Assembly: GCA_004293445.1 (NCBI GenBank)
Contig: RDYP01000001.1
Location: 124,001 to 188,000, forward strand
Direction of reading: 5' to 3'
Source of the DNA: Verrucomicrobiota bacterium
Lineage (GTDB): Bacteria > Verrucomicrobiota > Verrucomicrobiia > Verrucomicrobiales > Akkermansiaceae
Length of the DNA: 64,000 nucleotides
In this document: positions 7,835 to 54,660 of the stretch, piece after piece
How the letters are laid out: each line of letters opens with the position of its first letter
How positions within the stretch are numbered: position 1 is the stretch's first letter
Translations under genes and position numbers: made by a program
Notes under the pieces: model-generated
Databases searched by the model: none
The model's input: the letters and a program-made list of their open reading frames with translations, nothing else
Told to the model about the DNA's origin: nothing

Positions 7835-9249
<1,415 letters not shown>

Positions 9250-9253
<4 letters not shown>

Positions 9254-9837
9254 TGGGAGGTTTGACTGACTTCGTAGGAGTCGAGAAGGGCGCGGGCTTT
9301 GTCGGCGGAGACGGCCTCGTGGAAATCGTCATTCACCAAGCAGACGGGAGCGGTCCCGCAGGAAGCGAGGCATTCGGCGAATTCGACCGACCATTTCCCG
9401 CAGGGCGAGACGCTGACGGGGTGGTGGTGGGAGTCGGCGTGGGAGCGATCGATGCCTGTCAGATCGCAGAGCTTCTCCATCAGTTCATGGGAGCCGCCCA
9501 TCGCGCAGGAGAGCGTGCGGCACACGCGGATGTGAAATTTCCCCGGAGCGGACTGGCGGAAGCCGGGGTAGAAAGTGACGACCTCAAGGACCTTGATCGC
9601 GGCAATGCCGAGTCTCGCGGCAACCCAATCAATGGCCTCGGCGGAGATGAAGCCGTGATGATGTTGAACGAAATGGAGGAGGGGCAGAACGGCCGAGCGT
9701 TTTTGATCTGCCGGGAACTGGGCGAGGCGCTTCTCGGCCTCCGCTTCAAGTGCGGCAGTGGGCACGAAAGGCGGGAAAAACTTCGCGCCGGGTGTCTCTT
9801 CCGAGGCCACGTTTTGATCGAGGATCGATGCGGACAT
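9250..9837 (-). CDS. nuoE: NADH-quinone oxidoreductase subunit E (24-kDa [2Fe-2S])
   Basis: The 195-residue protein has the thioredoxin-like [2Fe-2S] fold of complex I subunit E. The four cluster cysteines are seen as CRTLSC and, further on, ECLASC. The N-terminal helical part contains the typical LPLLHFVQHHHGFISAEA stretch. It transfers electrons within the NADH dehydrogenase module next to NuoF. It starts 2 bp after the stop of the thioredoxin-like gene and overlaps nuoF, so it is tightly coupled in the operon. The first 30 residues are poorly conserved and might be shorter. Confidence 0.96.
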
Positions 9838-9839
9838 GA

Positions 9840-10514
9840 TTATTTGACGAGTTTCTCGAGTTCGGCGATCGACTGGGTCTTGGCTACGACCTTGCCATCG
9901 AGATCGCAGACGACCACCGAGGGGATGCCGGTGACGCCGTGGTTGAAGTCCCGTTCGAACTTTGCCACCTTACCGAGTTTCAGCTGAGGCCAAGGCATCT
10001 TCTTGTCCTTGGCGTAATTTTCCATGGCTCCCTCGTCGTCGTCGCTGGAGATCAGGACGAGTTCGAAGTTGTCGTTGCCGTCTTTGTTCGCGTTGTAGAA
10101 TTCGACAAGGCTGGGCGTGAATTGCTGGCAGGGGCCGCACCAGGACGCGGTGTAGTAGAAAATGTAGTATTTCCGGGGCTTGCCTTCGGGCTTGAAGCGC
10201 TTGAGCGACCTGCCCGTTAATTTCACAAGGTTGCCATCGAGCACATCGTCGAAGGCGCTGGGCTTGGAATCGGCCGCGACCGCGAGCGGTTTCCAGTCGG
10301 CGAGACGCTTGGCATCGGGTCCGGCGAGGTCTGCGGCCTGCAGGGTAATCTGCTTGCCGTTACGCATTCGAAATTCTCCGGCTTTGCCGTCTTTCGTATC
10401 GATGACTCGGACGAGATCCAACTCAGCGGTTTTGCCGTTCTTGTTCGTCCACGTCTCGAAGGCAGCGGAAGAAATGCTGACGAGGCACAGACTGAGAACG
10501 AGGAAGGCTTTCAT
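9840..10514 (-). CDS. secreted thioredoxin-like protein with N-terminal SHD1-like domain
   Basis: The start at 10514 gives a clean signal peptide (MKAFLVLSLCLVSISSA). An SHD1-like beta domain follows (FETWTNKNGKTAEL onward, roughly residues 19-75), then a nucleoredoxin-type thioredoxin domain with the active site WCGPCQQF and the conserved cis-Pro region GIPSVVV. The protein should act as a disulfide reductase or isomerase outside the cytoplasm. It lies between nuoD and nuoE with 17 and 2 bp spacing, so it is co-transcribed with complex I genes. That is an unusual position. A link to cofactor or disulfide handling for respiration is only an inference. Confidence 0.85.
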   Translation of the reverse strand: MKAFLVLSLCLVSISSAAFETWTNKNGKTAELDLVRVIDTKDGKAGEFRMRNGKQITLQAADLAGPDAKRLADWKPLAVAADSKPSAFDDVLDGNLVKLTGRSLKRFKPEGKPRKYYIFYYTASWCGPCQQFTPSLVEFYNANKDGNDNFELVLISSDDDEGAMENYAKDKKMPWPQLKLGKVAKFERDFNHGVTGIPSVVVCDLDGKVVAKTQSIAELEKLVK

Positions 10515-10531
10515 CGCGAACTTGGTTCGAT

Positions 10532-11782
10532 TCAGCGGTCGCACTCGCCCATGACGAAGTCAAGCGATCCGAGGACGGCCGGAATGTCGGACACCATGTG
10601 GCCGGGCAGGAGGGTGGAGAGCGGCGACAGATTGCAGAAGGAGGGGCTGCGGATTTTCAGGCGATGGGGCACACCGCCGCCGGTTGAGTGGATATAAAAG
10701 CCAAGCTCACCCTTCGGATTCTCGGCGGCGAAATACACCTCTCCGGGAGGAGCATCGATTCCCTGAGTGGCTACGATGAAGTGGTGGATGAGTTCCTCCA
10801 TCGACATCATCACGCGCTCCTTTTCGGGGAGCATGCTCTTGGACTCCGCGAGATTGACCGGGCCGGAGGGCATGGTGTCCAGCACTTGGCGGCAGATGCG
10901 GATCGACTGACGGATCTCCTCCATACGGACGAGATAGCGTGCGTAGCAGTCGCCTTCGTCGGCAATGGCGACATCGAATTCATACTGCTCGTAACCGAGG
11001 TAGGGACGATCCTTGCGCAGGTCGCGGGCGACACCAGAAGCACGGAGATTGGGGCCGGTGAGGCCCCAAGCGATGGCGGAGTCTTTGGAAATGACACCGA
11101 TATCCGCCATGCGGTCGATGAAGATCTTGTTCTTATCCAGCAGCTTGGAAACCTCGCCAATGGTGACCTCGCACTCGTTGAGAAAGGTGCGGACCGATTG
11201 ATCGAAGCCGGGCGGCATGTCGCGGACTTGGCCGCCGACACGAGTGTAGGAAGTGGTGAAACGGGCCCCGGTGAGTTGCTCGCAGAGATTGTAGATCTTT
11301 TCCCGCTCGGTGAAGGTGTAGAGGAAGACGGTCATCGCGCCGACGTCCATGGCGCAGACACCGACCCCCAGAAGGTGAGAGGAAATGCGAGCGAGTTCGC
11401 AGCAGAGGACACGCAGGGCCTTGCCTCGGGCGGGTAGTTCCCAGTCCATCAGCTTCTCGACAGCACAAGCGTAGGCCACGTTGTTGGCGAGGGGGGCGAG
11501 GTAGTCGAGCCGGTCCGTGTAGGGCACGAACTGGTTGTAGTGCATGTTTTCGGCGATCTTTTCATCGCCGCGATGGAGGAAGCCGACATCCGGGTCCGCC
11601 TTGGTGATCACTTCGCCATCCAATTCCAAGATCAGGCGCAACACGCCGTGGGTGGCGGGGTGAGAAGGGCCCATGTTGAGGACCATCTTCTCGCCCATCA
11701 GGTCCGTTGTCTCCTCGTGGTATCCTGCGGCTTTCGCGGCGATATCGGGGACTTGGTATTCGGTCGTGGAGGTGCTGCTCAT
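10532..11782 (-). CDS. nuoD: NADH-quinone oxidoreductase subunit D (49-kDa)
   Basis: This 416-residue homologue of hydrogenase large subunits forms part of the quinone site of complex I. The hallmark NMGPSHPATHGVLRL lies near residue 36, followed by DVGFLHRG and the conserved C-terminal segment GSLDFVMGECDR. The ATG at 11782 is preferred over one 39 bp upstream because the extra residues are not family-like. It is the first gene of a partial nuo operon; subunits A, B, C and G-N are not in this window. The divergent region upstream carries a Rex operator. Confidence 0.96.
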   Translation of the reverse strand: MSSTSTTEYQVPDIAAKAAGYHEETTDLMGEKMVLNMGPSHPATHGVLRLILELDGEVITKADPDVGFLHRGDEKIAENMHYNQFVPYTDRLDYLAPLANNVAYACAVEKLMDWELPARGKALRVLCCELARISSHLLGVGVCAMDVGAMTVFLYTFTEREKIYNLCEQLTGARFTTSYTRVGGQVRDMPPGFDQSVRTFLNECEVTIGEVSKLLDKNKIFIDRMADIGVISKDSAIAWGLTGPNLRASGVARDLRKDRPYLGYEQYEFDVAIADEGDCYARYLVRMEEIRQSIRICRQVLDTMPSGPVNLAESKSMLPEKERVMMSMEELIHHFIVATQGIDAPPGEVYFAAENPKGELGFYIHSTGGGVPHRLKIRSPSFCNLSPLSTLLPGHMVSDIPAVLGSLDFVMGECDR

Positions 11783-11834
11783 GAGAATCCCGGCAGCCGA
11801 ATCAGGCCCCAAGAGTGGCACTCGGGCAAGGGGT

Positions 11835-11852
11835 TTGTGAAATTTTTCACAA
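11835..11852. promoter_or_regulatory. Rex operator (ROP site) upstream of nuoD operon
   Basis: The 18-bp palindrome TTGTGAAATTTTTCACAA matches the published Rex consensus TTGTGAA-N4-TTCACAA at every fixed position, and symmetry extends one base further on each side. It lies 53 bp upstream of the nuoD start and 74 bp upstream of the divergent isomerase-like gene, so it could control either. The window also encodes Rex at 51690-52310. Rex represses when NADH/NAD+ is low, so NADH dehydrogenase genes would be induced when NADH accumulates. Confidence 0.85.
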
Positions 11853-11925
11853 AGTCGGGCTGGCAGGCATCCATGTCCGATTTCCCGGGCTTGCCAGTTC
11901 GGCGCGGTGCAGCGAGGCTTCGGTC

Positions 11926-12807
11926 ATGGAACGCCGTTCTTTCCTTCGTCGCAGTGCCGCCACCACCCTTGCTTTTGGTTCGACAGGGGGGCTGATGGCC
12001 GCTCTTGCACCAGACAATGCCTACCGCAAGAACCTTGGCATTCAGCTTTATACTCTCCGCGACGCCTTGGGTAAGGATACCTTGGGCACCTTGAAGCAGG
12101 TCGCTGCAGCGGGCTACAAGCAGGTGGAGGGCTACGGGTTCCCGAATTGCCAACCCCTGATCGATGGGGCGAAGGAGGCGGGACTGGCGATGAATTCCTC
12201 GCATTTCGAGTGGGACTGCGTGGTCAATCCAAAGGACGAGGCGATGTCGGATTTCCAGAAGGTGCTCGATCGGGCTCGAGAAGTGGGTTTGAGCGATCTG
12301 GTGATACCTTACCTTGCGGACGGGAATCGACGGACGCTGGATGACTACAAGAAGGTCGCCGAGCACGCGAATCGCGCCGCGTCGCTGGCCAAGGCTGCGG
12401 GTTTGCGACTTTCCTATCACAATCACGCCTTTGAGTTGCAGCCGATGGAAGGTGACAAGTGCGGCTATGACGTCCTGATCGAGGAGTTTTCCAAGGACAT
12501 GATGTTCGAGGTCGATGGTTTTTGGATCAAGGTCGGCGGTCGGGAACCCGCGGCGATGATTGAAAAGCTCGCAGGGAGGGTTTCGCAGGTTCATTTGAAG
12601 GATCTCAAATCCGGATTGACCCTGCCGGAATTTGGGCAGCTACCACAGGATGCGTTCAAGGAGTTGGGGGAAGGCATCATCGCGTTGGAGCCGATCCTTG
12701 CTGCGGCGGAAAAGGCGGGCGTGAAGCATTGCCATGTGGAGCAGGACTACTCGCCGAATGCGATTGAGAGCATTCGCCGCAGTGCTGCCTACCTTGCCAA
12801 GCTATGA
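11926..12807 (+). CDS. Tat-exported sugar phosphate isomerase/epimerase-like TIM barrel
   Basis: The ATG at 11926 gives a twin-arginine signal (RRSFLRR within MERRSFLRRSAATTLAFG). A xylose-isomerase-like TIM barrel follows, with typical segments GIQLYTLRD, LSYHNHAFELQP, DGFWIKVGG and HLKDLKSG, whose His/Glu/Asp residues form the divalent-metal site in this superfamily. Length (293 residues) is normal. Such Tat-exported members are abundant in Verrucomicrobiota and Planctomycetes and usually act on uncommon sugars. The substrate is unknown. It is divergent from nuoD across an intergenic region with the Rex site. Confidence 0.8.
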   Translation: MERRSFLRRSAATTLAFGSTGGLMAALAPDNAYRKNLGIQLYTLRDALGKDTLGTLKQVAAAGYKQVEGYGFPNCQPLIDGAKEAGLAMNSSHFEWDCVVNPKDEAMSDFQKVLDRAREVGLSDLVIPYLADGNRRTLDDYKKVAEHANRAASLAKAAGLRLSYHNHAFELQPMEGDKCGYDVLIEEFSKDMMFEVDGFWIKVGGREPAAMIEKLAGRVSQVHLKDLKSGLTLPEFGQLPQDAFKELGEGIIALEPILAAAEKAGVKHCHVEQDYSPNAIESIRRSAAYLAKL

Positions 12808-51689: not shown

Positions 51690-52310
51690 GTGGAAAAGAT
51701 CGATATTCCCAAAAAGGCGATCTACCGCCTTTCGATCTACCACCGTTGCCTCCAGCGTCTTCAGGACAATGGTCAGGAAACGGTGAGTTCGACGGCCTTG
51801 GCCAAGGTGGCAGGGGTCAAGCCCGCCCAGCTTCGGAAGGATCTTGCCTATTTCGGCCAATTTGGGACGCGTGGGCTGGGTTATCCGGTGGAGACCTTGG
51901 GTTCGATGATCCGGGATCTTTTGGGACGCGAGCGTTTGCAGCCGGTGGTGCTGGTGGGCGCGGGTAATCTGGGATCGGCGCTCTTGCGGTATCAGGGTTT
52001 CCAGAAGGAGGGCTTTGAGGTAGTGTGCGCCTTTGATGCCGATCCGGATGCCGCTCGCAGCCGTGGTGTGGGGATTCCGGTGAGGTCGGAGCGCGAGATC
52101 GAGGAGTTCGTGCGGGCGGAGAACGTCAAGCTGGCGATTCTTTGCGTGCCTGCGAGCTACGCGCAGTTGATTGCGAATCGTCTGGTGGCGGCCGGGGTGC
52201 AGGGGATCCTGAATTTCTCGCCGGTCATGCTCGAGCTGCCCGACGAGGTGGTGGTGAACAATGTGGACCTCGCGCTCGAGCTGGAGCATCTGAGCTTCTT
52301 CATTCGCTAA
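51690..52310 (+). CDS. rex: redox-sensing transcriptional repressor Rex
   Basis: The GTG at 51690 starts a 206-residue Rex. The N-terminal winged helix has [16 protein letters not shown] and [20 protein letters not shown], followed by [12 protein letters not shown]. The Rossmann domain carries the NAD(H) site [13 protein letters not shown] (Gly90 to Gly95). The C-terminal domain-swap helix reads [17 protein letters not shown]. Rex senses NADH/NAD+ and represses respiratory and fermentative genes. A perfect consensus operator is found upstream of nuoD in this window, which gives it a likely target. It starts opposite pdxH and is followed by the ECF sigma gene on the same strand. Confidence 0.96.
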
Positions 52311-54222: not shown

Positions 54223-54660
54223 GTGTCCAGACTCAGCATTCCCGAATACGCGATGGCGCTGGCCCACGTGGCCAGCATGCGATCGGAGGATCCCTACCGC
54301 AAGGTGGGGGCGGCCGCGCTCGATTTCGATAATCGAGTGATCGGGACAGCCTACAACGGTCTCGCTCCCGGCTTCAACGCACCGAATGGATTTTGGGATG
54401 ATCGGGAGGCACGTCAGAAATTCATGCTCCATGCGGAAGTGAACCTGTGCAGTCTATTCCGTCGTGGTGAGGCAAAGATCGTAGCCACCACGACAATGCC
54501 CTGCACCGCCTGCATGCAGACGCTCTGCGCCTATGGGATCCGCGAAATTTACTATCGTGAAACCTATCACAAGTCCGACGCGCCGGAGATCGCAAGCATC
54601 TACGGAGTGAGGCTCGAGCAGGTCGACTTCAGTCCCTTTGCGGTCGAGGACGCGCGATGA
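54223..54660 (+). CDS. dCMP deaminase-family protein
   Basis: The GTG at 54223 is chosen because the family begins near SIPEYAMALAHVASMRSEDP. The 145-residue product has the zinc site of cytidine/deoxycytidylate deaminases: HAEVNL (His and catalytic Glu) and MPCTACMQTL (two Cys). The segment DPYRKVGAAALDFDNRVIGT also fits. It converts dCMP (or another cytosine nucleotide) to the uracil form; the exact substrate is not certain. Starts at TTG 54211 or further upstream, overlapping the previous gene, are possible but less likely. Confidence 0.8.
   Translation: MSRLSIPEYAMALAHVASMRSEDPYRKVGAAALDFDNRVIGTAYNGLAPGFNAPNGFWDDREARQKFMLHAEVNLCSLFRRGEAKIVATTTMPCTACMQTLCAYGIREIYYRETYHKSDAPEIASIYGVRLEQVDFSPFAVEDAR

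Follow-up and report, generated by a model that had tools for sequence, protein, structure and literature searches.

The complex I gene nuoD of this verrucomicrobial genome is preceded by the palindrome TTGTGAAATTTTTCACAA (positions 11835-11852), which raises the question whether this site is an operator of the regulator Rex and which genes such an operator would control. In a sequence search of the window, i.e. the whole 64-kb stretch of DNA analysed here, the 18-mer was found as an exact match to TTGTGAANNNNTTCACAA, the generalised Rex consensus of Ravcheev et al. 2012 as quoted in PMC5317091. All 14 of the 14 fixed bases are matched by the site ahead of the nuoD transcription unit, as originally predicted; when up to 3 mismatches were allowed, shuffled windows contained 0.01 matches on average. 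The prediction had also placed the site ahead of nuoD, which is correct, at a distance of 53 bp, which we counted as 52 bases between the operator and the ATG at 11782 (minus strand). The central four bases, ATTT at 11842-11845, are non-palindromic, a point the prediction did not make. Sequence comparison makes it very probable that the 18-mer is the Rex operator of a small Verrucomicrobiales regulon that covers much of oxidative phosphorylation and in which repression is lifted by NADH. The sites, their number and targets, their conservation, their co-occurrence with rex, their decay in rex-less genomes and the geometry of the promoters are seen in the sequences themselves.

The first gene of the presumed controlled unit is nuoD (10532-11782, minus strand; NCBIfam TIGR01962, 533 bits). 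It is followed on the same strand by nuoE (9250-9837), which scored 130 bits with TIGR01958 and thus remained below the cut-off of 142, and by nuoF (7835-9253), which exceeded the cut-off of NF010120 with 472 bits and whose first codons may not be the true start. Between nuoD and nuoE a further minus-strand frame with a signal-peptide-like start (9840-10544) lies within the presumed operon. On the other side of the operator a divergent gene (11926-12807, plus strand) encodes an isomerase-like protein with a xylose-isomerase-like TIM barrel (PF01261) and a twin-arginine-like start in its translation. The suggestion that this Tat-exported isomerase is perhaps controlled as well found no support: a tblastn search detected no isomerase homologue beside the operators in 100 fetched loci, 16 of them with the site before nuoD, and a TTG at -35 distance from the window operator exists on the nuoD side only. 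We therefore rejected the isomerase as a target, given the missing conservation and the missing TTG on its side.

The presumed regulator is encoded at 51690-52310 on the plus strand (NF003995, 248 bits). Its N-terminal winged-helix DNA-binding domain matched PF06971 with 66.6 bits (cut-off 27) and its Rossmann domain for NAD(H) matched PF02629 with 67.9 bits, the GxGxxG motif being present as GAGNLG. Almost the entire protein can be aligned with solved Rex structures, and the RKDL.YFG segment as well as the GAGNLG stretch are intact and align with the solved chains. These domain and alignment matches bear out the predicted Rex at 51.7 kb with intact DNA- and NADH-binding motifs. That rex lies in the same window is likewise correct, its position being 40 kb off; this proximity is incidental and carries no weight by itself. 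The own genome contains a single rex match (E 1e-10), and the nearest rex genes were found in MAGs (up to 91%), Luteolibacter marinus (86%) and Haloferula sp. BvORR071 (85%). An operator ahead of rex itself is a common, non-defining trait of Rex regulons. In the window the best match before rex had 6 mismatches of 14, i.e. no operator was found there, and among 80 rex loci a copy occurred in two, both times ahead of a nuoG-like gene.

As the original prediction had proposed, the own genome was scanned as a whole (3,345,549 bases in 49 contigs). The scan returned six exact copies of the 18-mer, none with one mismatch and none for a reversed control pattern; from base composition alone, the expected number of matches to the 14 fixed bases is about 0.003. 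All six copies precede respiration-related units, in either orientation relative to the gene. Three belong to complex I: nuoB-nuoC (operator gap 48 bases), nuoD-E-F (52 bases) and nuoG-nuoH (74 bases). Here nuoB and nuoD exceeded their NCBIfam cut-offs, nuoG reached 456 bits at a cut-off of 470, and the names of nuoC and nuoH rest on their translations. The other copies precede a polyprenyl diphosphate synthase gene (pps; gap 11 bases, Pfam), actA-actB of alternative complex III (gap 43 bases; ActA, a multihaem cytochrome, by Pfam, ActB by PDB 6f0k at E 1e-212) and atpB of ATP synthase (gap 70 bases, Pfam). At two mismatches 12 further places appeared, one of them at 54555-54572 of the window, and none for the reversed control. 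A few of these are possible weak sites; the same looseness gave 8-14 places in five rex-less relatives, against 1-15 in the control. An identical three-mismatch stretch lies near the ends of three own-genome contigs (G000:C4:44-61, G000:C35:44-61 and G000:C49:82193-82210), and may be a repeat at which the assembly broke.

The choice of targets is conserved among relatives. In 18 genomes from 17 genera we surveyed every one of the 101 sites, and for 99 of them the target genes belong to respiration, quinone synthesis or ATP synthase. According to tblastn with the own-genome proteins, 91 sites precede nuoB, nuoD, nuoE, nuoF, nuoG, nuoH, pps, actA or atpB. Further targets were nuoI (L153), cytochrome oxidase subunit I (L189), a cytochrome c (L171), mqnE (L180), the start of nuoF at a contig end, a repetition of the one at L165 (L170), and an NDH-2-like dehydrogenase at three loci. 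The latter was recognised at L137 from Pfam matches that include an NDH2 C-terminal domain below cut-off, and at L202 and L212 from the similarity of their frames to L137; the L202 site lies behind a pps gene and ahead of NDH-2. At two sites the target is ambiguous: L147, with a gene for an RNA-binding protein, and L179, with rpsL. Some further sites have two candidate genes, e.g. L180, where the second is a sigma-factor-like gene running the other way. In this order the genes of complex I are dispersed: in one genome (G318) seven separate units carry the operator (nuoG, F, E, I, D, H and B; L146, L148, L150 and L153-L156), the highest number among the genomes surveyed, compared to three in the own genome. 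A shared site would therefore explain how such a scattered complex is coordinated. Paired operators 23 or 25 bp apart were seen before actA in G007 (L123:1621 and 1644) and G016 (L134:1575 and 1598), and also at G024:C11:117122 and 117147.

The position of the operator within the promoter was analysed by stacking 97 operators (91 from relatives and the six own ones) of nine operon types, which come from related genomes and are not independent. At the nuo and atp sites a TTG follows the operator in the direction of the gene after 4-8 bases in 69 of 70 cases, the exception being L142, with a spacing of mostly 5 or 7 bases. It is part of a CTTG in 56 of the 70 sites, mostly as a CTTGC -35 element. 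By comparison, TTG was found in 6% (at most 14%) of control windows in the same rows, and random positions gave 8% for TTG and 2% for CTTG. The best -10 element lay 16 or 17 bases beyond the -35 in 52 of 69 promoters, with a weak consensus. In the window, the candidate -35 of the nuoD promoter is TTGCCC, preceded by a C (11824-11829, minus strand), its TTG standing 5 bases after the operator in the same layout as in relatives. The candidate -10, CCTGAT (11801-11806, minus strand), was placed 17 bases after the -35 by the best-scoring spacing in related promoters; it is weak, with 3 of 6 bases agreeing with TATAAT. A general sigma-70 scan of 11600-12100 found no promoter, and the CTTGC promoter was revealed only because related sites were stacked. 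From this geometry the centre of the operator at nuo and atp would lie near -50. The layout differs at the two other kinds of target. In 5 of 8 pps promoters, TTGC or TTGA begins 17 bases ahead of the operator, which would then overlie the -10. At actA a downstream TTG was present in just 3 of 19 cases, and an arm of the operator may itself act as the -35.

Such a layout suggests how the regulon might work. At a low NADH/NAD+ ratio a Rex dimer would occupy the site just upstream of the nuo and atp -35 elements and hinder RNA polymerase there; at the alternative complex III and polyprenyl diphosphate synthase genes it would probably sit over the core promoter. When NADH rises, Rex would bind it and leave the DNA, such that complex I, complex III, the quinone side-chain enzyme and ATP synthase would increase jointly. 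That Rex binds, that NADH is the signal and that the effect is a repression are what we infer here, and NADH control of the nuoD operon would follow from the protein family of the regulator. Occlusion is less obvious at nuo and atp, where the operator is located upstream of the -35 unlike in Streptomyces avermitilis, and hindrance of the sigma or alpha subunit by an upstream Rex is plausible. Rather doubtful is a stronger proposal, in which Rex is position-locked in Verrucomicrobiales. A cassette of operator, mostly 5 or 7 bp, CTTGC, about 17 bp and -10 would then mark the split pieces of complex I as well as ATP synthase, and Rex would contact or compete with RNA polymerase at the UP-element or sigma position, possibly including activation, rather than occlude the promoter as in Streptomyces. 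Less probable again is that Rex is the regulator without repressing nuo and atp, e.g. as an activator upstream of the -35, with actA and pps as its repressed targets. The operator-TTG distance, fixed in nearly all nuo and atp sites, and the deviating layout at actA and pps would agree with this, as would the S. avermitilis repressor sites, whose positions with respect to the start vary widely in the sections of PMC5355995 we draw on. Those same sections describe every S. avermitilis Rex target as repressed (PMC5355995), opposite signs on complex I and complex III would make little physiological sense, and the position would fit blocking of the alpha subunit or sigma equally well. Repression by Rex that is relieved by NADH thus remains our preferred reading.

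If Rex acts on the motif, the two should occur together. Among 97 genomes of the family the motif was found in 79 and rex in 75: 75 genomes had both, 18 neither, 4 the motif only and none rex only, an agreement of 93 of 97 that stems from related, non-independent genomes, such that Fisher values are not usable as probabilities. In family genomes of at least 90% completeness motif and rex agreed in all 81 cases (64 both, 17 neither); the four motif-only genomes are 72-89% complete. Genera g12 and g13 each hold genomes with both and genomes with neither, and presence was therefore switched at least once within each, if the genera are monophyletic. In genus g3, which is presumably Akkermansia, rex was absent in every member seen. 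Across the phylum we sampled 288 genomes with a completeness of 90% or more; 26 of them contain the motif and 166 a Rex relative. Four or more copies are present in 16 genomes (families f1, f2 and f14), and exactly these 16 carry a Rex with an identity of 59% or more to the window Rex. The ten other motif-bearing genomes have one copy each, with rex present in 6 and absent in 4. At three of these loci in distant members of the phylum (G145:C11:308351, G248:C22:135142 and G325:C312:27449) the single copy lies directly ahead of rex, which suggests autoregulation there. An exact copy was missing in 144 of the 166 phylum genomes with a Rex relative. The motif and its regulon are therefore specific to the clade and not implied by the presence of any, more divergent Rex; occurrence of the operator where rex occurs holds in the family and fails outside the clade. 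In another distant genome a single copy (L219, G169:C1:239300-242500, outside the target survey) lies upstream of nuoE- and nuoF-like frames with 28% and 51% identity, perhaps belonging to another NADH-linked enzyme.

The same distribution bears on a different family of regulators. CRP/FNR proteins bind sites of the consensus TGTGA-N6-TCACA, which the palindrome also fits exactly, a reading that the original prediction had not considered, and its agreement with rex could in principle be indirect. This fit is one of sequence only. In a search with one Pfam model, HTH_Crp_2 (PF13545), the domain exceeded the cut-off in 21 of the 97 family genomes compared to 79 with the motif, and the best match in the own genome reached 24.8 bits at a cut-off of 27. 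Moreover, the motif tracks rex and directly precedes it in the three distant genomes. On the distribution of HTH_Crp_2 and the agreement between motif and rex we rejected the CRP/FNR reading, which appears very improbable.

If the motif serves Rex, it may be expected to decay where rex is gone. In the rex-less genomes of g12 and g13 we took every CTTG upstream of nuoD and atpB as an anchor and scored the 18 bases in register with it. At nuoD the best scores were 1, 4, 2 and 5 mismatches of 14 (G013, G053, G035 and G052); nuoD of G075 was not found. At atpB they were 1, 3 and 5 of 14 (G075, G035 and G052), with 6 for G013 and 7 for G053. For at most 5 mismatches the null rate is 0.007 per anchor, with several anchors per promoter, so that single weak cases prove little. 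Scans free of anchors recovered the low-mismatch remnants at the same places, and all nine anchors read CTTGC, of which CTTG had been imposed by the search. Five promoters of g3 and g5 genomes gave 3, 6, 8, 8 and 8 mismatches. Rex-less relatives thus appear to keep decayed operators at nuoD and atpB while the promoter TTG persists, and g12 and g13, where rex comes and goes, constitute a natural experiment on operator decay. Together with the conservation of the sites, their targets and their co-occurrence with rex, this pattern strongly supports the original proposal of a Rex operator ahead of complex I genes. The centre of the operator reads AAAT or ATTT in 74 of the 97 stacked sites, compared to 6 with AATT and 5 with ATAT, despite the palindromic arms and with mixed direction relative to the gene. 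The reading as a repeat or as a promoter element (UP element, A-tract) without any regulator would suit this preference, the identical centre of all six own copies and a position fit for an AT-rich UP element, but its probability is next to negligible given that the centre varies among relatives and that the stretch decays in rex-less genomes where the adjoining TTG stays. A mobile or spreading repeat was rejected, since, apart from the operator and the TTG close to it, the surroundings of the six copies differ from one another.

If the preferred reading of NADH-relieved repression by Rex is true, a single NADH sensor would adjust the levels of complex I, complex III, the quinone side chain and ATP synthase in concert. 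The proposed regulon belongs to a known kind, that of Rex, and has a wide scope and a fixed promoter layout. Verrucomicrobia were reportedly not among the phyla covered by the comparative Rex regulons of Ravcheev et al. 2012. We found no published Rex regulon for Verrucomicrobia in the open-access literature, which is weak evidence of absence, and the regulon can be tested in this phylum.

The closest known counterpart is the Rex regulon of S. avermitilis, in which, according to the account in PMC5355995, the nuo operon, the atp operon and ndh2 are direct targets, Rex represses and NADH weakens its binding. Both share the consensus TTGTGAANNNNTTCACAA as well as the nuo and atp targets (PMC5355995, sections cited). 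The S. avermitilis targets also include cydABCD, rex-hem, wblE and others (PMC5355995, same sections), whereas in the verrucomicrobial clade alternative complex III and polyprenyl diphosphate synthase are among the targets and rex has no site of its own. Complex I is moreover divided here into several units, each with a site, and the operator stands upstream of the -35, unlike the S. avermitilis nuo and atp operators, which are described as lying between -35 and -10 and including the -35 (PMC5355995). In PMC5317091 the passages on Rex describe a Rex site in front of a hydrogenase operon and make no connection between Rex and complex III. For Staphylococcus aureus the operator is given as TTGTGAAW4TTCACAA (PMC2883068, as far as cited), and its W4 centre resembles the all-A/T centre found in 89 of our 97 operators. 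The S. aureus Rex controls mainly genes of fermentation and anaerobic respiration, as summarised in PMC5355995, whereas the verrucomicrobial sites are found at genes of oxidative phosphorylation.
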